This document shows positions 3,475 through 14,870 of a DNA stretch of 20,867 nt, piece after piece. This DNA is from a virus. The notes beneath the pieces were generated by a model that saw nothing but the letters and a program-made list of their open reading frames with translations, did not search any database and was not told the DNA's origin. The position numbers were made by a program, and so were the translations under genes. Every line of letters starts with the position of its first letter. Positions within the stretch are counted from its first letter, which is position 1. Location: positions 1-20,867 of the IMG/VR virus record IMGVR_UViG_3300007344_009520; one strand, written 5' to 3'.

Positions 3475-3852
3475 TCAGAATGCGACGGCTTCGACTTCTT
3501 CGTTGGCCTTATCCGTATTTTTCTTTTTAGAAAGCTTAGCAATTTTAGCAAAATTACTAACTCTAACTTTCATTGTCGAATGCTTTACGCCATCCTTTTC
3601 CCATGAATCATTTCTCAGTGAGCCTTCAACAAATACAAGATCTCCCTTTTTAAAAGTTTCAGAGATTGTATCTGCTCCAGAATCCCATGCTTCACATGGA
3701 ATAAAAGAAGTTATCTTATCTCGGGATCCATCGGCTCTAGTAAATTCTCTAGAAACAGCAACGGTAAAATTTACCACTGAAGTACCCTTTTCTCCCACAC
3801 TTCTTAATTCAGGATCACGAGCCAAATTACCACGCAAAATAACAGTATTCAT
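3475..3852 (-). CDS. ssb: single-stranded DNA-binding protein
   Basis: 125 residues, one bacterial-type OB fold. The N-terminus MNTVILRGNLARDPELR, the block VVNFTVAVSREF around residue 30 and the strands FIPCEAWDSGADTI and GDLVFVEGSLRNDSW are diagnostic of SSB. It coats single-stranded DNA at the phage fork. The linker is short and lysine-rich, and the tail ends EEVEAVAF: a terminal phenylalanine after acidic residues, but not the DDDIPF-type tip of most bacterial SSBs, so partner binding may be phage-specific. The ATG at 3852 has a GAAAGG ribosome-binding site eight bases upstream. A sigma70-like promoter lies upstream at 3912-3940 and a hairpin downstream at 3423-3454, suggesting independent, probably strong expression. 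A plus-strand frame of similar length covers the same bases and is a shadow. Confidence 0.96.
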   Translation of the reverse strand: MNTVILRGNLARDPELRSVGEKGTSVVNFTVAVSREFTRADGSRDKITSFIPCEAWDSGADTISETFKKGDLVFVEGSLRNDSWEKDGVKHSTMKVRVSNFAKIAKLSKKKNTDKANEEVEAVAF

Positions 3853-3943: not shown

Positions 3944-5581
3944 CTAGACTTGCCATATTTTTTTAACTATCAACGAGTCTCCTTCCTTGTTCTTATTTCC
4001 ACTTATAACTACAGTGTTGCCTGGCTCTATCAGATCTTTAAATTCTGAAAATGCTTCTGGAAACAATATCACAGAGTCCACACTTCCTGTTGAATCTGAA
4101 ATCGTAACAAAAGCCATTTCACTGCCTGGATTTTTTCCTTTTTTTGTTTTAGTTATTTTTACATCTATTATTTCACTAGCAATACTAATTGTTTTTAATA
4201 AAGTATTCTTAAATTCTGAACAAGTAATATTAGCCCCCAAATGATCACAACCATCTATTTTTGAACACGTTAAGGCTACTCCTAGAATAGCGTACTCGTT
4301 ATCCGCTATCCATTCGGGGCTATCTATAAGCGTATATGGGGGATTTTGTAAGATTTTTAAAGCATCAGATATAGCTTTATGTCGTTTAGAAGAAGATAGC
4401 ATCTGCCCTCTTCCTGTGGGCGATTCCAAAACTTTCGATAACAAATCTTCTGTGCTTTCAAGACCTATTAAACATTCATTATTCAATATATTCGAATATT
4501 CTTTACTAGTAAATACAGACAAACAATTTAAACACGCTATCATATAGTTTCTACTGTATTTCATGTAGTCTAAACCTCCGGCAGTAATCATATTTTTCAC
4601 TGCGGATGAGTTCATATGTCTTAATATTTTTATATAAAGTTCTGGAAACTTTATGTTTGGTATATCAAAGTTATTATCATCAATTATTTTTTTTAATTTT
4701 TTATATACGGATAAACCAAAGCCTTTTATATTGGTTAAACCGAAGCATATTTTTTGTTCGTGCAAAAGAAAATTTTCATTCATCAGCCTTAAATCGGGTA
4801 GCATCACGCTTATGCCCATTTCTTTTGCATTATTCACTAATTCTCTAATTTCTCGTTGTGGATTAATTTTGTCTTTAGCAAACATTAAATACGACAAGAA
4901 AAAAACTTTAGGGAAATGAGATTTTGCATAAGCTGACAAAAATGCATTAAACGCATAACTAACCGCATGAGACTTATTAAAAGAATATCTTTGAGATTTT
5001 TCGATCCAATTAAACAATTCTGTAGCTTCTGAATTAGAAACTATATTTAATTTCTTGGCGCCAGATATAAACTTTTCTTTAAGTTTCGCCATTTCTTCTG
5101 GTTTTTTCTTGCCGATTGCTTTACGTAGCATGTCTGCTTGTTGCAGATCAAAACCAGCTATTTTCTGAGCTATTTGCATAGCCTGTTCTTGATAAATCAT
5201 TTCTCCGTATGTTTTATTCAAAATATCTTTTAAGGCAGGATGGAAGTAGTCTACCGCTTCTTTTCCATTTTTTTTATCTATATAATGATTAGTTACACTC
5301 TTGCCTTCTCTAAAAGCTTCCAAACATCCTGGTCTCATTATGCTAACTAAAGCCGCTAGTTCTTCTATATTTGAAGGTTTCAATCTTTTAGCAAGAGACT
5401 GTCCTAATCTGGACTCTAATTGAAAACACCCTTTGGTGTTTCCATCTGACAAGATTTGCCACGTTCTTCGACAATCTAAATTAATTTTAGATATATCTAA
5501 ATTAAAATATATATTTGGTATCTTTTGTTCTTTGATAATATCAAAAGAACATCCGCAAGATTTATAAACAAACTGTTTCAT
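3944..5581 (-). CDS. DNA polymerase III alpha subunit, C-terminal half (fingers to OB fold)
   Basis: 545 residues making the second half of a split DnaE-type replicative polymerase. It begins with about 25 residues not found in E. coli DnaE (KSCGCSFDI...), then joins the family at INLDCRRTWQILSDG and CFQLESRLG (residues 33-60). Fingers-domain blocks follow: LVSIMRPG, GEMIYQEQAMQIAQKIAGF, DMLRKAIGKK and YSFNKSHAVSYA (to about 211). The HhH region is near 320-340 (AVKNMITAGGLDYM) and an OB fold occupies 470-545 (IIDVKITKTK ... FVTISDSTGSVDSVIL ... VVISGN). None of the three catalytic aspartates is here; all are in the gene at 6527-8374. An obvious internal clamp-binding motif is not seen. The ATG overlaps the exonuclease stop by one base (TAATG), so translation is probably coupled. 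Confidence 0.9.
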   Translation of the reverse strand: MKQFVYKSCGCSFDIIKEQKIPNIYFNLDISKINLDCRRTWQILSDGNTKGCFQLESRLGQSLAKRLKPSNIEELAALVSIMRPGCLEAFREGKSVTNHYIDKKNGKEAVDYFHPALKDILNKTYGEMIYQEQAMQIAQKIAGFDLQQADMLRKAIGKKKPEEMAKLKEKFISGAKKLNIVSNSEATELFNWIEKSQRYSFNKSHAVSYAFNAFLSAYAKSHFPKVFFLSYLMFAKDKINPQREIRELVNNAKEMGISVMLPDLRLMNENFLLHEQKICFGLTNIKGFGLSVYKKLKKIIDDNNFDIPNIKFPELYIKILRHMNSSAVKNMITAGGLDYMKYSRNYMIACLNCLSVFTSKEYSNILNNECLIGLESTEDLLSKVLESPTGRGQMLSSSKRHKAISDALKILQNPPYTLIDSPEWIADNEYAILGVALTCSKIDGCDHLGANITCSEFKNTLLKTISIASEIIDVKITKTKKGKNPGSEMAFVTISDSTGSVDSVILFPEAFSEFKDLIEPGNTVVISGNKNKEGDSLIVKKIWQV

Positions 5582-6279
5582 TAGCCAATAAAAGAATTTT
5601 GGAACTTGATTTTTTTGAATAAATTTCTATGCAATCTTAAGAATCTAATAAGTATTTCTGCGGTGTCTTTGACGTCTTTAAGAGCGTCATGAGCATTTTC
5701 TCCAGATATACCCATATATTTTCTAACATTGTCAAGAGTTAGGCTGTCTAAATCTGAAGATCCCTCAAACCAATAAAATAACAAATTCATGATATCCACA
5801 GTATCTCTAGGATAAAATAAATCAGTATTACCTTCCTTGTTTAGATTTTTATATTTTTTGCTCAATCTTTCTACTATTTTAAGATCAAATCTAAATATAT
5901 TATATCCTGCAGCTATAGGAGCGCTAAACATAGATTTTCTACTGCTGCGAGTATGATAATTTTGTAAGTATTGAACAAAACAATTCCAAGACTGTGTTTG
6001 GTCGGGATATTCTTTCCAATTTGATAAAACTTTTTTAGGTGTTATGCCTAAAATTTTACCGTGCCAATCCAATATGTCTGAATCATCGTAAGGGTTTTCG
6101 TCTTGAGATTCTGATAGTTTATCCGGCTTCAGATTAATATTGAACTCTGAATTGTCTATAATTTCTAACTTTACTGGATCTATCATGACAGCAGCTATTT
6201 GTACTGGGCTGCATATAGATGGATCAGATCCGTCTGTCTCCATATCGAAGACACAAATTTTCCTATTTTTTATAAGCAT
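5581..6279 (-). CDS. DnaQ-like DEDDh 3'-5' exonuclease (proofreading)
   Basis: 232 residues. Exo I is D12-M-E14-T in VFDMETDG, Exo II is around GYNIFRFD with D132, and Exo III is H197-D-A-L-K-D202 with the histidine that marks the DEDDh subclass. The middle reads FYPRDTVDIMNLL, typical of epsilon-like exonucleases that track the substrate strand. It lies between the two halves of the polymerase alpha gene and overlaps the C-half start by one base, which argues that it acts as the proofreading subunit of this polymerase; the pairing is inference. Compared with E. coli epsilon (243 residues) there is no recognisable long C-terminal alpha-binding tail. The start ATG is three bases after the previous stop, with no strong ribosome-binding site. 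Confidence 0.92.
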   Translation of the reverse strand: MLIKNRKICVFDMETDGSDPSICSPVQIAAVMIDPVKLEIIDNSEFNINLKPDKLSESQDENPYDDSDILDWHGKILGITPKKVLSNWKEYPDQTQSWNCFVQYLQNYHTRSSRKSMFSAPIAAGYNIFRFDLKIVERLSKKYKNLNKEGNTDLFYPRDTVDIMNLLFYWFEGSSDLDSLTLDNVRKYMGISGENAHDALKDVKDTAEILIRFLRLHRNLFKKIKFQNSFIG

Positions 6280-6282
6280 TAA

Positions 6283-6468
6283 TCAGTTATTATCTGTTAC
6301 TTTGGTAACTTCCTCTAATGGCTTAATAACAATCTTGGGGTTGGGATCACCAGTTAATCTAGCATTACAACCAACTTTACAACAAGAAACACGTTCCTCT
6401 TTAACTTTAACATGTTCAACATTGTTGTATAGAAATTTTTCACCTACTTTTAATTCAAAGAATTTCAT
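6283..6468 (-). CDS. small conserved-looking protein with Cys cluster
   Basis: 61 residues. Not assigned to a named family. The pattern MKFFELKVGEKFLYNN...VKVKEERVSCCKVGCNAR suggests a small beta-barrel-like protein (strand-turn-strand after KVGEKF) with three clustered cysteines, C29, C30 and C34. It could be a structural or regulatory accessory of the polymerase because it lies between the N-half and the exonuclease. It is certainly translated-looking: a strong ribosome-binding site AAGGGAG sits eight bases before the ATG, better than that of most neighbours, and the exonuclease starts three bases after its stop. A weak promoter may lie in the 58 bases upstream. Confidence 0.75.
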   Translation of the reverse strand: MKFFELKVGEKFLYNNVEHVKVKEERVSCCKVGCNARLTGDPNPKIVIKPLEEVTKVTDNN

Positions 6469-6476
6469 TATTTATA

Positions 6477-6483
6477 CTCCCTT
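6477..6483 (-). promoter_or_regulatory. strong ribosome-binding site of the 61-residue protein
   Basis: AAGGGAG on the minus strand, eight bases from the ATG at 6468. It is one of the best Shine-Dalgarno matches in the window and is the main argument that this small frame is a real gene. Confidence 0.7.
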
Positions 6484-6526
6484 AGAAACGAACACATATA
6501 CCATATTAGTCAAGAAGCAGAAACGG

Positions 6527-8374
6527 TCAACCTGCTAAAAATTCGCGTACTTTCATAATTTTATCCAACAATGCTACGCCCAATATATCAAATTTAATTA
6601 CACCTATTGATTCAAGATCAGACATCTCCATACCTGCTATAGTTTGGCCGGTTTTACTATCATAAACCATAGGACATATGCTGGATAAATCTTGTGCGGA
6701 CACAGCAATTCCTGCGGCGTGTTTTGATTGATGGCATTTAACGCCCTCTAAACGTATGGCCTGTTCAAATCTTTTAGACAAAGGGCCGTGCAAAGAACCA
6801 TCAGACTTTATCTGACACCACTGTTTTAATTTTTTGCCTTCGTTTTCTAATGCCCATTTTATGATTGATGCTTCTCCGTACTCTTCTTTCATTTCCTGTA
6901 GATCGTCGGCAATTTTTGCTTCATCTGGTATATTTTCAGTAATCTTATTCATTTCATCAAAAGATATTGTGTCATACACCCTTAAAACTTCTTTCAATCC
7001 CCTTCTACTTTTTAAGGTATTATACGTTATCATCTGACTAACTTTATTTTCACCATACATATTTTTAATATGTTCGATAACCAATTCTCTTTTTTCTATT
7101 GGTACATCTACATCAATATCAGGCATACTAATTCTACCACCAACATTCCTTCCTGCGTTATAGAATCTTTCAAAGATAAGATCATATTTTATAGGATCGA
7201 TAGTGGTAATTCCCAACAAATAAGATACTAAGGCCCCAGCAGCACTTCCTCTGCCTGGACCCGGAAGCCATTTATTATCTTTAATAAAGTCTACTATGTC
7301 TTTTACTATCAAAAAATACCCAGATAAATTTGCGGACATTAATACGTTTAATTCGTAATCTAGTCTATCTTTGTAGGTTTCTGATAGATTGTTTTCTAAA
7401 ATTTTTTGATACGTAATTTTTTTCAAATACTCCGCTTCTGTATAATCCCCTGGACATTTAAATGGAGGAAGTCTTGGTTCATCCAAGATATTAAAATTTT
7501 CACACATTTGATTTATTAGGTGAGTATTGCCCAATTCCTCTTCTGTATGAAGCAGACTCATTTCTTCGTTAGACAAAATGTAAAAATTGTCTGATTTAAA
7601 AAATGTTTTTAATCCAAAGTCCTCGTTGGCTAGCAATTTTTTAGTTACATTTGGTATAGTTGTTTTGAGATTATTGCATAATAATATTCTTTGATCTACG
7701 GCATCCGTTTTATTGGCATAGTGAGCATCTATGGATGCGACTAAATTAATATCCAACAATGATTTATTTTCTCTATAAAAATTAGTTAATAGCTTTTGAG
7801 AATCACAATTTTCTCTATCCATCAATTGAGCTTCGATAAAAACATTATTTTTACCAAACATTTCTTTTAAGATATCTATTTTGGACTTGGCTATAGTAAC
7901 AGCATCACTGTTAAGTTTATCTTGACACAATATATCATTTGATACTACAGAACCGGGGTGTCCTGTCATGCATATAAAATTTTCTAAACTATACTCGGAT
8001 AATTCAGATAAAGATATTCTGGGCTTATGATAAAAATATTCTTTGCTATTGGATTTAGATACGATCTTTATAAGCTCTCTCCAAGCTTTTATATTTTTGC
8101 ACAAAATGAGCATATGAGATAACTTTGAATTATCTTTGGATTGTATCTTTGCAGATTCTTTACAGATGTATAATTCTATTCCCAGAATAGGCTTGATGCC
8201 TTCTTTAGACATTTTTTGATAAAATTGAACATTTCCACTAATTGTTCCATGATCGGTTATTGCACAGGATTCGATGTTTAGATCACAACATCTTTTTGCT
8301 ATTTGTTCGGGTTTCGATAATCCGTCCAAAAGGCTATAGTGAGTGTGAACATGTAAAGGTATATATGAATTCAT
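6527..8374 (-). CDS. DNA polymerase III alpha subunit, N-terminal half (PHP and palm)
   Basis: 615 residues holding the PHP domain and the palm with all catalytic residues. PHP: H8-V-H10-T-H12-YS, TD41-H42-GT, GIELY near 65 and DAHY at about 216-219, so the metal ligands look intact. Palm: PGPGRGSAAGALVSY near 371-385, PDID421-V-D423 (first two catalytic Asp) and KFD596-ILG (third). The protein stops 19 residues later, at KVREFLAG, in what is a linker in E. coli DnaE. The rest of the enzyme is encoded 946 bases downstream as a separate gene. The ATG overlaps the stop of the upstream nuclease gene as ATGA, so the two are coupled. PHP domains of DnaE proteins bind the epsilon exonuclease, and that gene is also between the halves. 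The stop codon TGA is part of a TTGACC box. Confidence 0.93.
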   Translation of the reverse strand: MNSYIPLHVHTHYSLLDGLSKPEQIAKRCCDLNIESCAITDHGTISGNVQFYQKMSKEGIKPILGIELYICKESAKIQSKDNSKLSHMLILCKNIKAWRELIKIVSKSNSKEYFYHKPRISLSELSEYSLENFICMTGHPGSVVSNDILCQDKLNSDAVTIAKSKIDILKEMFGKNNVFIEAQLMDRENCDSQKLLTNFYRENKSLLDINLVASIDAHYANKTDAVDQRILLCNNLKTTIPNVTKKLLANEDFGLKTFFKSDNFYILSNEEMSLLHTEEELGNTHLINQMCENFNILDEPRLPPFKCPGDYTEAEYLKKITYQKILENNLSETYKDRLDYELNVLMSANLSGYFLIVKDIVDFIKDNKWLPGPGRGSAAGALVSYLLGITTIDPIKYDLIFERFYNAGRNVGGRISMPDIDVDVPIEKRELVIEHIKNMYGENKVSQMITYNTLKSRRGLKEVLRVYDTISFDEMNKITENIPDEAKIADDLQEMKEEYGEASIIKWALENEGKKLKQWCQIKSDGSLHGPLSKRFEQAIRLEGVKCHQSKHAAGIAVSAQDLSSICPMVYDSKTGQTIAGMEMSDLESIGVIKFDILGVALLDKIMKVREFLAG

Positions 8375-9345
8375 TCTATTGAGCCTGGAGCTTTGTATTT
8401 TCCAACATTGTAGCCCGGAGCTGTGTATTTGTCAATGACTGCATTTAAGCCATGAAGCTCCGTATCGTGTTTAATTTGTTCACATTTGGTCATATGTGAA
8501 TTTTTAGGCGTCACTTGATTGTCTCTATATTCTATAAGCGGCTCATCAAATGATGTTTTACCAAAATGACAAAGTTTGTTGCATTTCCAGCTTCTATTTA
8601 ATTTTGGTTTTTTGCATCTTTTAATTTCTTCAAATTTTTTCCTTATCATGTTTTCCGTTTCTGGAAGCTGACTTCTATCGTAATTCATACTAAATATACC
8701 GCCATCATTGATGAAATATATACTTACTATTATGTGATCTATATCAGGATATAGCATACTAGCAGCATAATGATACATTCTTAATTGAGGATCTTTTTCT
8801 AGTTTAGAAAAAGTTTTCTCTTGTCCAGTTGCCCAATCGAGCCTTCTGCCAGTTTTGTAATCTATTATTTCTAAAGTTGAATCATTTGCCTTGGCTATAA
8901 GGTCAATAGTGCCTTTTATGGCCAAATTCCCCTCCAAATCATTATATTTATAATACGCCCAAGGTTTTGTGATTTCTATATCAAAGTGTTGTTCCGGTTT
9001 AACAATATTTTGCGTTCGTGGATCAAAGATACCATTATGGTCTGTGAGGGCTCTGTAGACCCAAGAAACGCAGTCTTTTAAGTCTTTATCCGACCAATCA
9101 TGGTTTTTAAACCGACTGCTGTAATAATGGTAAATAGTATGAATTATGCTATCAAGATCATAATTATTGATATCTATATTTGGTATGATTTCATCATCGT
9201 AGTTATTTTTTTTATTTTGTTGACAGAGTTTAATACCGGCCAAAATTTCTAAAACTTTATGAACTATTGTACCTTTATCGGCCTTTTTATTAGATGGACT
9301 ACGATGGCCTAATACGTATTCTATGAAATATTGTTGTTCGCACAT
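8371..9345 (-). CDS. RecB/AddB/Cas4-type PD-(D/E)XK nuclease, possible Fe-S
   Basis: 324 residues. Motifs run in the order of the RecB nuclease family: KGTIVH29, GTID148, EIID162-Y-K164-TG and Q187-L-R-M-Y191. A cysteine near the N-terminus (C2, in MCEQQYFIEYVLG) and three near the C-terminus (C255-x3-C259, C288) are arranged like the 4Fe-4S ligands of AddB and Cas4, though spacing differs; the cluster is inference. The ATG at 9345 has only a weak ribosome-binding site, and the frame stays open for 19 more codons upstream, reading SSYGTHC just before MCEQQ, which resembles the usual family N-terminus. No ATG, GTG or TTG exists there, so a non-standard start or a loss of the true N-terminus is possible. 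The C-terminus has two copies of Y-x-APG. Likely role: DNA end processing in replication or recombination. Confidence 0.85.
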   Translation of the reverse strand: MCEQQYFIEYVLGHRSPSNKKADKGTIVHKVLEILAGIKLCQQNKKNNYDDEIIPNIDINNYDLDSIIHTIYHYYSSRFKNHDWSDKDLKDCVSWVYRALTDHNGIFDPRTQNIVKPEQHFDIEITKPWAYYKYNDLEGNLAIKGTIDLIAKANDSTLEIIDYKTGRRLDWATGQEKTFSKLEKDPQLRMYHYAASMLYPDIDHIIVSIYFINDGGIFSMNYDRSQLPETENMIRKKFEEIKRCKKPKLNRSWKCNKLCHFGKTSFDEPLIEYRDNQVTPKNSHMTKCEQIKHDTELHGLNAVIDKYTAPGYNVGKYKAPGSIE

Positions 9346-9386: not shown

Positions 9387-9983
9387 TTATGATAGCACCT
9401 TTTTATTTTTTAAAAAGTTAAGTATAACCTGATTTTGTTCTGGGATAGAAAGATTTTCGTTATAGATTACAAGATCGAAATTTTGTGAATCATAATTAGA
9501 TTCATCTAAAGCAGTTTCGCTTTCATGATCAGAATTGTATGGATTTCTTGTTAATTTTATTACCAGACCGCCAACCGCTTTTACTGCCTCAACTTCATTA
9601 GGGAATCTACAATCTGCGATTATGGCAATTTTGGGTTTTTCTTTTTGTATTTTATTTATAGTAGCACTAGACCATACGTTATGTTTCATTTTGCGAAAGA
9701 TATTTGTGCCAACAAACTGCATAACTTCTCTTGCGGTCATTTGTTTTCCATCATCCCAATAACAATCCACTAATTCGTTTTTTTGATCATCGGAACCATA
9801 ACACTGGTCGTGCGTTAAGCCTAATACTTCGATGCATATGTTTTCTTTTAGGGGATCTGCAAAATTATATATTTTGGCTTTATTAAAACCTTCTATTTTT
9901 CCGTTAAAATATTTAACTACAAATTCTGAACATGTAGTTTTACCAGACTGTTTTCTTCCTGCAAACGCTACAATTTTAGTCAT
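9387..9983 (-). CDS. deoxynucleoside monophosphate kinase
   Basis: 198 residues, P-loop kinase resembling phage dNMP kinases (T4 gene 1 type), which phosphorylate dNMPs to dNDPs. Walker A is G9-RKQSGKT16 right at the N-terminus. The block REVMQFVGTNIFRKM near 85-100 and the block IIADCRFPNEVEAV near 121-134 are characteristic of the family; the latter carries the conserved D-C-R-F-x-N-E. The lid-region arginine is within KLTRNP. The ATG overlaps the end of the primase gene by eight bases. In context it feeds the polymerase together with the reductase and deaminase at the other end of the window. Confidence 0.88.
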   Translation of the reverse strand: MTKIVAFAGRKQSGKTTCSEFVVKYFNGKIEGFNKAKIYNFADPLKENICIEVLGLTHDQCYGSDDQKNELVDCYWDDGKQMTAREVMQFVGTNIFRKMKHNVWSSATINKIQKEKPKIAIIADCRFPNEVEAVKAVGGLVIKLTRNPYNSDHESETALDESNYDSQNFDLVIYNENLSIPEQNQVILNFLKNKKVLS

Positions 9984-11160
9984 AAATGTTTTCCTTGATA
10001 TAATTTTTAATTTGTGTTTGTATTTCTTCTGGGGTCATATCCCCCACATCATTTTTAGTTATTTCGGGACAAAATATTCTATAGGTTTGGGAAAACTTTT
10101 TTATGATTTGTTTTTTAGCAGAAGCTCCTGCCGCATCATTATCGGTCAAAATCACAATATTCATAGCCCCCGACATGTCTAATAAAAATTTTTGTTTTTG
10201 CCCAATGCTAGAACCAAATATAGCGACAGAGTTGTGTATAGAATTTTCTTCTAATCTCCAAACATTGCCGGGGCTTTCTACTATTATAACAGTTTTGGTA
10301 TTCTTTATATGATCTTTTGCAAACCATAGGTTGTATAAGGTTTCTTCGGCCTTAAAGCCTTTATTATGTCTCCACTTAGAATATGAGAAAAGATATTTAT
10401 CTGGACATTTTTTAGACTGGTCATGGAAATATCCGCAATTGTCACATTTTTCGAATATGCTTCTACCTGTACATCCAATCATGTACTTATAATCAACATC
10501 ATATATCGGCACTACCACTCTTTGATACATAGGTTTGCCATAGCTATTACAAAATCCTACATCATATTTATCTAATATGTTTTCGGAATAACCTCGATTC
10601 AAATAATATTTTGCTGGAATTTGTAAAGAATTTCTAATGGTTTTTCTAGTTATGAATTGATTGTTAAATAATGGTTTGTTATTTATGGTTTTTATATTTT
10701 TAACAAATTTTTGTTTTTCATTATTTTTAATTTTAGGTATTTTTGTTAAATCAAGTTTTAGAAAATTTTCAATAAATTTTAAAGCCTCTTTAAACGATAT
10801 TAGCTTATCGCCATCCTGTTGCCAATTATGTTTTCTGTGGGATAAAATACCTCTAATAAAACCTATAATAGAGGGCATAAATATTTTTTCGCACTGATGG
10901 GAACGACATTTCCAATTACCTCTATAAACTTCTCCATAAGGATATATATTCAATGCTGTTGTATTGTCTCCTCCATGCACGGGACATGCAGAAATAAACA
11001 TCTTATCTGTTTGACGATATTCGATGTCAAAATAGTCCAGCAATTCATCTATACGATCAGATAATTGATCGCTGATGTTTTTCAGTTGTTCTTGATCAAG
11101 CGAATGGGATTGCTTGGTTTTGTTGTTCATTGTCAATAATGAATCCATCATCAGAGCCAT
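9976..11160 (-). CDS. DnaG-type DNA primase with extra cysteine cluster
   Basis: 394 residues, makes RNA primers at the fork with the adjacent helicase. The N-terminal zinc-binding domain has C59-PVH62 and C85-RSHQC90 (CHC2-like). The TOPRIM domain has VIIVE295-SPGN and LTD340-N-D342-AAG. Between them, within the RNA-polymerase-like core, sits an additional cluster: C239-D-N-C242, H246 and C252 in a loop after GRSIFEK, where ordinary DnaG proteins have no zinc site. The C-terminal helicase-binding domain is short or missing, as in many phage primases. The start is uncertain: the ATG at 11160 overlaps the helicase gene by 65 bases, and an internal ATG at 11130 would reduce this to 35; neither has a clear ribosome-binding site and residues 1-20 look unconserved. 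Confidence 0.9.
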   Translation of the reverse strand: MALMMDSLLTMNNKTKQSHSLDQEQLKNISDQLSDRIDELLDYFDIEYRQTDKMFISACPVHGGDNTTALNIYPYGEVYRGNWKCRSHQCEKIFMPSIIGFIRGILSHRKHNWQQDGDKLISFKEALKFIENFLKLDLTKIPKIKNNEKQKFVKNIKTINNKPLFNNQFITRKTIRNSLQIPAKYYLNRGYSENILDKYDVGFCNSYGKPMYQRVVVPIYDVDYKYMIGCTGRSIFEKCDNCGYFHDQSKKCPDKYLFSYSKWRHNKGFKAEETLYNLWFAKDHIKNTKTVIIVESPGNVWRLEENSIHNSVAIFGSSIGQKQKFLLDMSGAMNIVILTDNDAAGASAKKQIIKKFSQTYRIFCPEITKNDVGDMTPEEIQTQIKNYIKENIYD

Positions 11161-12559
11161 CGTTAGAGTTTGAATTTAAGAGTTCTATCCTAGTTTTACC
11201 TTCTGTAATTTTAGCACACCAACCTTTCATATTACAATTTATATAATCGTTATCGTCTAAACCACCTCCGTGTCTACTAATAACAGGAACCAGTTTACGA
11301 TTGCCATTTTTAGCACCATCTTCGGCTATTTCTTCATCTGTTTTGCGTTTGAAGATTGTAAAATTACTACATAACCAAATGATTCTATCAGAACCAGAAG
11401 CTGTATCTGTAGTTTCTTTAGTTATACCATCTCTATTTAGTTGTACAAATGCAACTATTGGAACTTTATACTTTGTACAAAAATTGTGTAACGCAGTCAT
11501 CATAAAACCAAGAACTTGGTATTCTTTAAGGTCTTGTGAAATACCCTGAGAATCCATAAGTTTTAAATAGTCATAAAATATAACACAGTCTTTTATTGAA
11601 CCATCTTCATTGGTTCCTACAACTTTGGAAACCCATCTTCTCATTAATGAGAGCTGCTCGTCAAAACTCTTACCCGCTATAGATTTATAATAAATAGGCA
11701 CATCAGAAAGTTCTTTAATAGCTTCCTGTATTTTTTGACGCTTAGAGGAAGTGTTAGAAAATTTACCAGTCTCAATATCGTTTATATCTATTTCTGTCAT
11801 CATGGCCAAAAGTCTGTTGAGATGATCTTCGTGCGTCATTTCTGTGTCTAGATTAAGTACAGGTATACCCTGTTTTGCAATATGCAAACCCATATTATCT
11901 ACTAACAAAGTTTTACCCGTTTTAGGTCTAGCGGCAATCACATTTACTGTGCTTTTTCTTAAACCTCCACCTATAGATTTATCATAAACAGGAAAGCCTG
12001 TAGATATACCGATTTGATCTATAGGATTCTGTATCAGATTCTCTATATAGTCTTCTAAGTCCTTGCTAATTAATATAGGATTATTATCGTTATCATTAAG
12101 TTTATTTGTAAAATCAAATACAGTGTCTTCTGCAACATTCAATATCTGTGATATACTTTCCGTTCCATCAATATCTAATAAATTTTCTTTTGCTGTATCT
12201 AATTGTTTGTATAGAGATCGAGCTATCGATAATTTTTTAATTTTTGCAGAAAACTTGGCTATATTATTTTGACTTGTATTAAAATGCAAAATAGCTTTTA
12301 AATGCTCTATCTCTTCATCTCGCGATAGTATCTGATATAAATTTAATTCTTGAGATGATGACAATATTGATGGTAAATCAATTTGCTTAACATCATGTTG
12401 GTCAAATAAATTTTTTAGACACTTGTAGATGATTATATTGCTATCGACAGTAAAACAAGACTCATCCAGAAGCTCTTCCACATCGACATATAAATCTTGT
12501 CCAAATTGAATCAATCCAGACAGAACTGCTCTTTCGGCGGATACATCAGTTAACGACAT
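11096..12559 (-). CDS. DnaB-like replicative DNA helicase
   Basis: 487 residues, hexameric 5'-3' fork helicase. The N-terminal DnaB domain is recognisable at residues 1-110 (SAERAVLSGLIQFG). The RecA-like ATPase has GISTGFPVYDKSIGGGL (185-200), Walker A A210-RPKTGKT (the usual first glycine is alanine), catalytic E240 in LDTEM, Walker B VIFYD330-YL, FVQLNRDG with Q373 as sensor and SRHGG near 428-432 as arginine-finger region. The tail is acidic (SNDGSDDG) and ends QAIPFA. Its stop lies inside the primase coding region, so helicase and primase are co-translated. The ribosome-binding site before 12559 is weak. The domain layout is complete, with no sign of an intein or frameshift. Confidence 0.93.
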   Translation of the reverse strand: MSLTDVSAERAVLSGLIQFGQDLYVDVEELLDESCFTVDSNIIIYKCLKNLFDQHDVKQIDLPSILSSSQELNLYQILSRDEEIEHLKAILHFNTSQNNIAKFSAKIKKLSIARSLYKQLDTAKENLLDIDGTESISQILNVAEDTVFDFTNKLNDNDNNPILISKDLEDYIENLIQNPIDQIGISTGFPVYDKSIGGGLRKSTVNVIAARPKTGKTLLVDNMGLHIAKQGIPVLNLDTEMTHEDHLNRLLAMMTEIDINDIETGKFSNTSSKRQKIQEAIKELSDVPIYYKSIAGKSFDEQLSLMRRWVSKVVGTNEDGSIKDCVIFYDYLKLMDSQGISQDLKEYQVLGFMMTALHNFCTKYKVPIVAFVQLNRDGITKETTDTASGSDRIIWLCSNFTIFKRKTDEEIAEDGAKNGNRKLVPVISRHGGGLDDNDYINCNMKGWCAKITEGKTRIELLNSNSNDGSDDGFIIDNEQQNQAIPFA

Positions 12560-13474: not shown

Positions 13475-13854
13475 TGTTCCAAATTTTCGTTGTATGGTAA
13501 TTCTATATATTCTAGATTGTTATTTTCGCACCAATTCTTTTTTTCTAAATCTCTTTTTTTATGTCTCATAAATCCCAAAGCATTAGAATGATAATGGGCT
13601 ACAAACTTATAATGTTGCTCTCCGTGAACTTCTATAGCCTTTTTTAATAAAGGTATGTAAAAGTCCAAATACAGTGTTTCTGTTCTTCTAAGAGGAATAG
13701 GCACTTCTTGTAAAACGGGTATTGTGGGATATAGGGTTTTTAATAATGCTAGTGTTGATTTATGTAATGAAGACTGTTTTTTTCGATTATTATTTATATG
13801 CCCCAATATATTCCATTTTACTCGATTACCATCTAAATCAATTACAAATGTCAT
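13447..13854 (-). CDS. small PD-(D/E)XK-like endonuclease (VSR/DUF559 type)
   Basis: 135 residues. The core LYLD64-FYIPLLKKAIE75-V-H77-GEQHY and the later HKKRDLEKKNWCENNNLEYIELPY match the fold signature of the Vsr/DUF559 group, in which D, E-x-H/Q and a following K-x-x-D-x-x-K helix form a compact single-domain endonuclease. It probably cuts branched, mismatched or specific DNA. Being alone between the recombinase and a putative mediator, it could be a recombination-intermediate resolvase; a free-standing homing nuclease is the alternative. It overlaps the recombinase stop by four bases (ATGA), showing translational coupling, which fits a resident gene. The residue assignments are by pattern and not aligned. 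Confidence 0.65.
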   Translation of the reverse strand: MTFVIDLDGNRVKWNILGHINNNRKKQSSLHKSTLALLKTLYPTIPVLQEVPIPLRRTETLYLDFYIPLLKKAIEVHGEQHYKFVAHYHSNALGFMRHKKRDLEKKNWCENNNLEYIELPYNENLEQWKQRIQKL

Positions 13855-14870
13855 TTGAGTCCCATTGTATTTTTAATTTGATCATACAAAGAATCATAGG
13901 CATCTTTGTTGTCTACCAAATATTGCCTAACCTTTTCTAGGCCTTGTAATTTTTGTTTATCTTTTTCTTCAAGAAATGATAGTGTATACCAAGATCCTGC
14001 TTTGGTTATTAGGCCCATGTCTGAGGCCAAAGTGGCTAATTCCATAGCCTTATCTATTCCTTGTCCATATCGTATATAACTTGTTATAGTTCCTCCAGGA
14101 GGACCAATAGCTGAACATTGAGTTATCCATTCAATTTCTTGTCCTATTTGAGTTTCATTATTTTGTGTGCCTACCATCCAGGGTTTATGGAATTTGGCTC
14201 TTAGCTTAACATCTGTTTGATATGCTACGGCCTGTCCAGATTTTTCTTTCCACTCTACATTGCCATATCCAGGGTTACCCATCAAATGAGTGATACCTAT
14301 TACTATGGTCCTATTAACAGGTATAACGTTTGCTACTTTTCTACAAAATTTAGCTAAAAGTTTAGCCCCATCTGCTCTTTGCATTTTATCCATATCCGAC
14401 GTTATCTCTGCTTCAGTACATAGTGCAGAGTACGAGTCTATTATTAAAACACACTCAGGCTCTTCATTAATAATTCTTTCAGCAATTTGTAAATATTCTT
14501 CGGCATGCAGAATTTTTCCTGTTTGAGATCCTATGATATGAAATCTATCTAAATCTAAACCAGATATTCCTTCTAGGTCTCGTTTTTTCAATCTACCTTC
14601 TATATTTAGGTAGTACACTGTTCTCGGACCCTTTTCGCCATTATACTCCGGTTTTTGTGCAGTTGCGGCGAAGTCTAAGCTCGTAGTTGTTTTACCACAC
14701 TTTGGCTGACCTGTAAGAATAACAAAACTTCCTTCTGGTATTCCTCCTCCTAGGATAATGTCCAAAGCCGGACTAACAGGTATAGTTTTTAAATCTTTAT
14801 CTATTAAGGCTTTGCCGTCTATAATTATGTTATCGCCAAAATTTTTTGTTACAGAATCCTTAATCGCCAT
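13851..14870 (-). CDS. UvsX/RecA-family recombinase
   Basis: 339 residues, forms filaments on single-stranded DNA and performs strand exchange. Walker A is G54-QPKCGKTT, the catalytic glutamate is E91 in LNIEGR, and Walker B is VLIID145-SYSAL. The segment IGITHLMGNPGYG (about 190-203) has histidine where bacterial RecA has the allosteric glutamine (NQIR), a feature I associate with phage UvsX. ALDIILGGGIPEGSFVILTG at 35-54 is typical of the RecA core. It is slightly shorter than E. coli RecA (353) and has no long acidic tail. The ATG at 14870 overlaps the upstream gene by 11 bases and has an AGAGGA ribosome-binding site about eight bases upstream. Together with the next two genes it likely forms a recombination module. 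Confidence 0.92.
   Translation of the reverse strand: MAIKDSVTKNFGDNIIIDGKALIDKDLKTIPVSPALDIILGGGIPEGSFVILTGQPKCGKTTTSLDFAATAQKPEYNGEKGPRTVYYLNIEGRLKKRDLEGISGLDLDRFHIIGSQTGKILHAEEYLQIAERIINEEPECVLIIDSYSALCTEAEITSDMDKMQRADGAKLLAKFCRKVANVIPVNRTIVIGITHLMGNPGYGNVEWKEKSGQAVAYQTDVKLRAKFHKPWMVGTQNNETQIGQEIEWITQCSAIGPPGGTITSYIRYGQGIDKAMELATLASDMGLITKAGSWYTLSFLEEKDKQKLQGLEKVRQYLVDNKDAYDSLYDQIKNTMGLK

Follow-up and report, generated by a model that had tools for sequence, protein, structure and literature searches.

A DnaE-type polymerase encoded by two genes

The window analyzed here is an entire virus record of 20,867 bases (IMG/VR record IMGVR_UViG_3300007344_009520), and its genes lie on the minus strand. 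It contains two genes that are, with a probability of roughly 0.86, the halves of one DnaE-type DNA polymerase III (Pol III) alpha subunit, which assemble non-covalently into the only recognizable replicase of the phage, with an exonuclease for proofreading. The N-terminal half (N-half; 6527..8374) is a 615 amino acid protein with the PHP domain, palm, and thumb and the catalytic residues D421, D423, and D596. Its PHP domain occupies residues 7-183 (7826..8356), as defined by Pfam and by alignment to Taq DnaE, and the Pfam domain DNA_pol3_alpha, which covers the palm with the thumb, occupies residues 317-599 (6578..7426). The C-terminal half (C-half; 3944..5581) is a 545 amino acid protein with the fingers, HhH, and OB fold (Pfam DNA_pol3_finger, HHH_6, and OB). 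Two further genes lie between the halves. One encodes a 61 amino acid protein (6283..6468), a predicted small beta-barrel of SH3/KOW-like type with an invariant Cys-Cys, and the other encodes a 232 amino acid DnaQ-like DEDDh 3'-5' exonuclease (5581..6279), recognized by Pfam RNase_T and its conserved DEDDh residues. The exonuclease gene overlaps the C-half gene by 1 nucleotide. The first-pass annotation, which was made from the sequence alone, had described an intact polymerase in two genes with the exonuclease and 61-residue genes inside the split, and all four open reading frames (ORFs) were found where it had placed them.

The PHP domain, palm/thumb, fingers, HhH, and OB fold are all present in DnaE order across the two genes. 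Both halves are of the DnaE type; in phmmer searches the N-half gave an E-value of 1e-76 to DnaE and 1e-19 to PolC, the PHP domain is continuous, and the OB fold is C-terminal, which is the DnaE arrangement. The fold predicted for the C-half by AlphaFold2, with a predicted local distance difference test score (pLDDT) of 87, matches DnaE over 533-543 columns. Identity to bacterial DnaE is at most 38% among the matches listed. The N-half stop codon lies 19 residues past D596, and this distance and the three aspartates agree with the first-pass annotation. In phrog_405, a phage polymerase family of 1190 positions, the N-half covers 41-613 and the C-half covers 613-1078 with no gap. In the alignment to E. 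coli DnaE, residue 604 of the N-half reaches DnaE position 563 and is followed by 11 further residues, while the C-half starts from position 569. The two ends thus overlap slightly on E. coli DnaE, and therefore no sequence is missing at the break, as had been proposed. The position of the break was also placed correctly, but its description as a linker in E. coli was loose, since the cut separates palm from fingers within a block that is treated as rigid (PMC4703070).

Conservation of the split

Relatives were gathered from IMG/VR with N-half alignments as the sole query, by which fused genes were equally findable. At least 153 loci on at least 138 distinct viral contigs were recovered, and the clade is larger than the sampled contigs. 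A fused gene in related phages was the observation that the first-pass annotation had named as contrary to its reading; such a gene was sought among the listed matches and was found in 0 of the 135 contigs with a complete N-half end. The C-half is a separate ORF in all 119 listed contigs that reach it, and the exonuclease gene lies between the halves in every one of them (119/119). The small gene is also found there in 113 of the 119, in keeping with the gene order expected in metagenomic phages. The position of the junction is constant, with the N-half ending 19-30 residues past the third catalytic aspartate in about 125 of 135 contigs, and many junctions in the clade have gene overlaps of 4 or 8 nucleotides. 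Mutual identity among 60 representatives, taken at the 80% identity level, is as low as 49%. The split sequences group together with full support, as one clade on a long stem, in a tree that also includes fused DnaE from phages and bacteria, and a second tree run recovered the clade again. The relation of this stem to other long-branched phage enzymes was not settled by the tree.

The split is an enduring feature of the lineage, not an artifact of sequencing, because the same cut is present in all 119 checkable relatives. It is scarcely credible that the split arose from faulty sequencing or assembly or that the gene is decaying. A three-base local oddity in a conserved motif of the window (6999-7009) would fit such an origin, and Bacillus phage Jayan, which is nearly identical to the fused PS1, indicates that recent breaks do occur. 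The Jayan split, however, lies at a different place, and its near-identity to PS1 marks it as recent. The split in the window is shared by two contigs from other metagenomes that are 99.8-99.9% identical to it and by 119/119 relatives (down to about 49% mutual identity), at a ratio of nonsynonymous to synonymous substitution (dN/dS) of about 0.03. Assembly error was rejected as the cause of the split on the strength of 119 independent contigs.

The motif with the oddity reads KSRRGLKEV in the window N-half and KGRGALKEV in both near-identical contigs and nearly all relatives. The variant consists of three substitutions in 11 bases, at 6999, 7003, and 7009, and probably reflects either an assembly error or a rare allele. 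Further shared differences are concentrated at 5475-6533.

A very unlikely alternative is that a split intein, intron RNA splicing, or ribosomal bypassing restores a single chain from the halves. Interruptions of phage genes are common, for example the spliced introns of Jug phages (PMC12363816). Two contigs of the same clade, L038 and L040, carry inteins within the C-half, and in the DnaE of Bacillus phage KLEB27-3 an HNH gene is accompanied by a weak match to a group I intron. In the window, however, the Pfam search found no intein domain in either half, and an Rfam search for introns found none even at a relaxed threshold. The N-half tail of 19-30 residues in most contigs and the C-half extension of about 25 residues are too short for intein halves. 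The gap holds two conserved genes (about 866 nucleotides), well beyond known bypassing, and each half has a start and a stop of its own, the gene overlaps being short. The break is also not at the cyanobacterial split-intein site, as the first-pass annotation had recognized; the YSFNKSH motif is continuous in the window.

Catalytic residues and selective constraint

D421, D423, and D596 are invariant in all 136 alignment rows. The fingers residues R153, K154, K158, K159, Y199, N202, and H205 are likewise invariant, in 101 of 101 C-half rows. At least 93% of rows retain the PHP metal-ligand positions, residue 139 being a His where Cys is usual, and the DEDDh residues are conserved in no fewer than 122 of 124 exonuclease rows. 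Across 15 pairs, dN/dS was 0.034 for the N-half and 0.037 for the C-half; the exonuclease had a lower value (0.026) and the small protein a higher one (0.107). These values are rough, as synonymous changes are close to saturation. Both halves are under strong constraint and, judged by conservation, are functional. Any Pol III requires the palm aspartates plus the fingers, and either half alone has an incomplete active site. Therefore, the halves must associate for activity.

In the proposed mechanism, the halves would be produced side by side from one operon and joined without a peptide bond. The N-half would supply the catalytic aspartates, thumb, and PHP domain, the C-half would supply the fingers, HhH, and OB fold, and the DEDDh exonuclease from the intervening gene would serve as the proofreading subunit. 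Physical assembly, polymerase activity, and binding of the exonuclease are what we infer from this arrangement. In a cryo-electron microscopy study of the E. coli enzyme, palm and fingers (281-432 and 510-810) are treated as one rigid unit, and the exonuclease is placed on the thumb and PHP domain (PMC4703070). By analogy, both exonuclease contact sites would be in the N-half here.

Replication machinery of the phage and its relatives

The halves belong to a replication operon. The gene order is recA, helicase, primase, PD-(D/E)XK nuclease, N-half, 61 amino acid gene, exonuclease, C-half, and SSB. The RecA/UvsX-like recombinase (13851..14870) is a conserved upstream gene and SSB (3475..3852) is a conserved gene after the C-half, while the DnaB-like replicative helicase (11096..12559) and the DnaG-like primase with a Toprim domain (9976..11160) are in the replication operon. 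The PD-(D/E)XK nuclease gene (8371..9345) is part of the same operon and overlaps the N-half start by 4 nucleotides.

Sixteen large records of the clade (106-244 kb) contain exactly one palm and one fingers match each, in separate ORFs. Pfam searches of these 16 records found no match to family A or B polymerases and no match to a beta clamp or clamp loader, with control genomes positive in both cases. This negative does not extend to the phage clamp PF02916, for which the search had no positive control. The clamp-binding motif is QL[S/D]LF-like (PMC3919608), and before the OB fold no such pattern was common to more than 6 of 100 C-halves; in the exonucleases none was common to more than 6 of 123. 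A frequent QRILL in the N-half sits within the PHP region, and no shared clamp-binding motif was found at a sensible place in any of the four proteins. A scan of a genome collection gave only ordinary bacterial DnaE among the matches listed, of which 79 of 80 were single ORFs and the other was cut by a contig end.

An improbable alternative is that each half has taken on a task of its own while the phage relies on the host polymerase; the N-half might, for example, work as a PHP nuclease or nucleotidyltransferase, and the C-half might be a DNA-binding factor. The conserved PHP ligand positions would allow nuclease activity of the N-half, and the clamp-binding motif was not found. In contrast, the Pol III active-site signature is kept without exception in both halves, and the halves sit in a complete replication cluster with helicase, primase, and SSB.

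Several points weigh against a two-chain replicase that acts as the sole polymerase. The assembly of the two halves is reached by inference. The 16 large records carry no completeness rating, and a further polymerase might lie in parts that the records lack or might escape Pfam by divergence. A clamp, a loader, and a conserved clamp-binding motif were not found, which leaves the processivity of the replicase unexplained.

The small protein and the N-terminus of the C-half

The model of the 61 amino acid protein is a small beta-barrel with a pLDDT of 90. A fold search returned uncharacterized small phage proteins and, besides these, only weak matches to EF-P/Tudor-like barrels, and a tblastn search against cultured phages gave no match. 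Iyer et al. 2021 reported a small gene of SH3 fold next to a different phage polymerase and posed the question of a subunit role (PMC7824862). The parallel is suggestive only, and a role of the 61 amino acid protein as an accessory polymerase subunit is a guess. Its place as an obligate part of the core, proposed by the first-pass annotation, is doubtful: 6 of 119 contigs have no small gene at the locus, which argues against an indispensable part, and the protein is less constrained (dN/dS 0.107). The C-half begins with a new N-terminal stretch (5470..5557) that holds C9, C11, and C37. C9 and C11 form a CGC motif that is present in 93 of 101 C-half rows, while C37 is present in 101 of 101, and the CGC-bearing stretch is predicted as a beta-hairpin. 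C9 and C11 together with C37 might be a metal site. A clamp-free replicase of four parts, i.e., palm chain, fingers chain, exonuclease, and SH3-like barrel, in which the barrel or the Cys-bearing hairpin replaces the clamp, is a doubtful extension of the two-chain arrangement.

Comparison with known systems

Bacterial DnaE1-type Pol III alpha (E. coli, T. aquaticus, and M. tuberculosis) has the same domain order, catalytic aspartates, and PHP ligand positions as the enzyme in the window, and these systems likewise have a separate DnaQ-like exonuclease. In contrast to bacterial DnaE, the enzyme in the window is encoded by two genes, has no detected C-terminal tau-binding domain and no conserved clamp-binding motif, and carries the new Cys-bearing N-terminus on its fingers chain. 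DnaE-type Pol III alpha is defined as a single polypeptide, and the enzyme with its two chains is therefore filed as a split variant and not as a canonical member. PolC shares the C-family core and a polymerase-associated exonuclease, but it has the OB fold N-terminally and carries the exonuclease inside the PHP domain (PMC3919608), neither of which is true of the window. The likeness to PolC proposed by the first-pass annotation was not borne out, as the halves are DnaE-type with a C-terminal OB fold and the exonuclease is encoded on its own, by a gene that lies between those for palm and fingers.

A Pol III alpha in two pieces has been reported from phages before. Iyer et al. 2021 described a minimal split Pol III alpha in group 2.2 jumbo phages and proposed that it reconstitutes one enzyme (PMC7824862). 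In both cases a phage Pol III alpha is made as two separate proteins. The jumbo-phage version consists of the core only, is encoded by distant genes alongside a family B polymerase, and is cut between the NTP-binding and the Mg/template-binding parts (PMC7824862). Unlike it, the window has PHP, HhH, and OB, is cut between palm and fingers, and holds the halves in one cluster with the exonuclease, and no PolB was found in the 16 large records of its clade. What appears to be new is a split with PHP, HhH, and OB, a palm/fingers cut, and a proofreader gene between the halves, as the only polymerase detected in a lineage that is widespread and uncultivated. No account of such a gene arrangement was found in the open-licence literature.

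Among 50,697 records of named phages, none was more than 34% identical to the N-half. The cultured Rossellomorea phage phiT1 has its DnaE (gp20/gp18; PV767480, L251 4492-7774) cut at the same junction. It differs in having a 49 amino acid gene between the halves, unrelated by eye to the 61 amino acid gene, and no exonuclease between them. phiT1 falls outside the split clade in the tree, and a common origin was not rejected (approximately unbiased test, p 0.106). Bacteroides phage DAC19, the top exonuclease match among named phages, has terminase, ligase, and helicase genes as neighbors and no DnaE, and was rejected as a related cluster. The DnaE of the human-gut "Bacteriophage" records L009 and L250 (MT836494 and MT835501) is nested among Lachnospiraceae chromosomal DnaE, and these records may be bacterial contigs.

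Cyanobacterial DnaE is also encoded by two genes, but its cut lies within the fingers, in the YxFNKSH region, and protein splicing joins the pieces again, whereas the window has a different site and no intein. Split family B polymerases include the T4-like gp43A/B and the PolB of Methanothermobacter. These and the intein-split PolB of phage MIJ3 (PMC6892783) also place a replicase in two chains or genes, in an unrelated polymerase family.

Variants of the locus and origin of the split

The locus varies in individual contigs. In L040 (12964-15833), a split intein divides the C-half further at YSFNK, and a separate 306 amino acid endonuclease-like gene lies between the intein parts, a layout that reportedly resembles the "fractured gene" arrangement of Dassa 2009. 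L038 (7707-10046) has a 779 amino acid C-half with a continuous in-frame intein near C-half residue 86, and this intein contains an HNH-like segment. In KLEB27-3 (L012, 4926-9296), two annotated DnaE genes flank the HNH gene, and the group I intron match is below threshold (22 bits, E 0.005); the likely cause of this split is a group I intron together with the HNH gene.

L025 (9740-12370) and L040 (9722-12967) have an insert between the exonuclease and the C-half, in which a pseudopilin-like gene (DUF1559) and a ThyX gene are found. ThyX is a Pfam match in L025 and the same sequence type in L040, which additionally has DUF1501. DUF1559 is typical of Planctomycetota, and the inserts suggest Planctomycetota hosts for these two contigs; the domain was seen in 2 of 25 records, from which no host is claimed. 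L094 and its relatives L098, L100, L101, and L103 are the most divergent subgroup and have no small gene at the locus. L094 (8908-9775) has a uracil-DNA glycosylase gene and a 110 amino acid gene between the N-half and the exonuclease, and phrog_4335 appears to fuse a DnaE fingers piece with a glycosylase-like domain. L031 (9057-11561) is the only contig with an 834 amino acid ORF between the small gene and the exonuclease, the start of which is RCC1-type repeat-like.

The split may have been made by a homing endonuclease that has since departed, with the small and exonuclease genes filling the gap, so that the gene order reflects history rather than function. This origin, which is compatible with two assembling chains, is a serious possibility that falls somewhat short of even odds. 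L050 has an HNH-type endonuclease gene between the N-half and the small gene, and there is some variation in what lies between the halves, as in L094, L031, and L025. On the other side, the presence of the exonuclease between the halves in 119/119 contigs is more than one would expect of a neutral filler, and no endonuclease remnant was found in the window.

Implications

Few large bacterial proteins are as conserved as the replicative polymerase. If the reading of two chains assembled into one Pol III alpha is true, the rigid palm-fingers block can hold together without a peptide bond across a viral lineage. Such halves should then not be taken as gene debris in annotation. The lineage would offer a natural two-piece Pol III for the study of fingers movement, proofreading hand-over, and processivity, and the apparent absence of a clamp system would put the question of processivity within direct test. 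The cultured phage phiT1, with the same cut site, would serve as the laboratory system.

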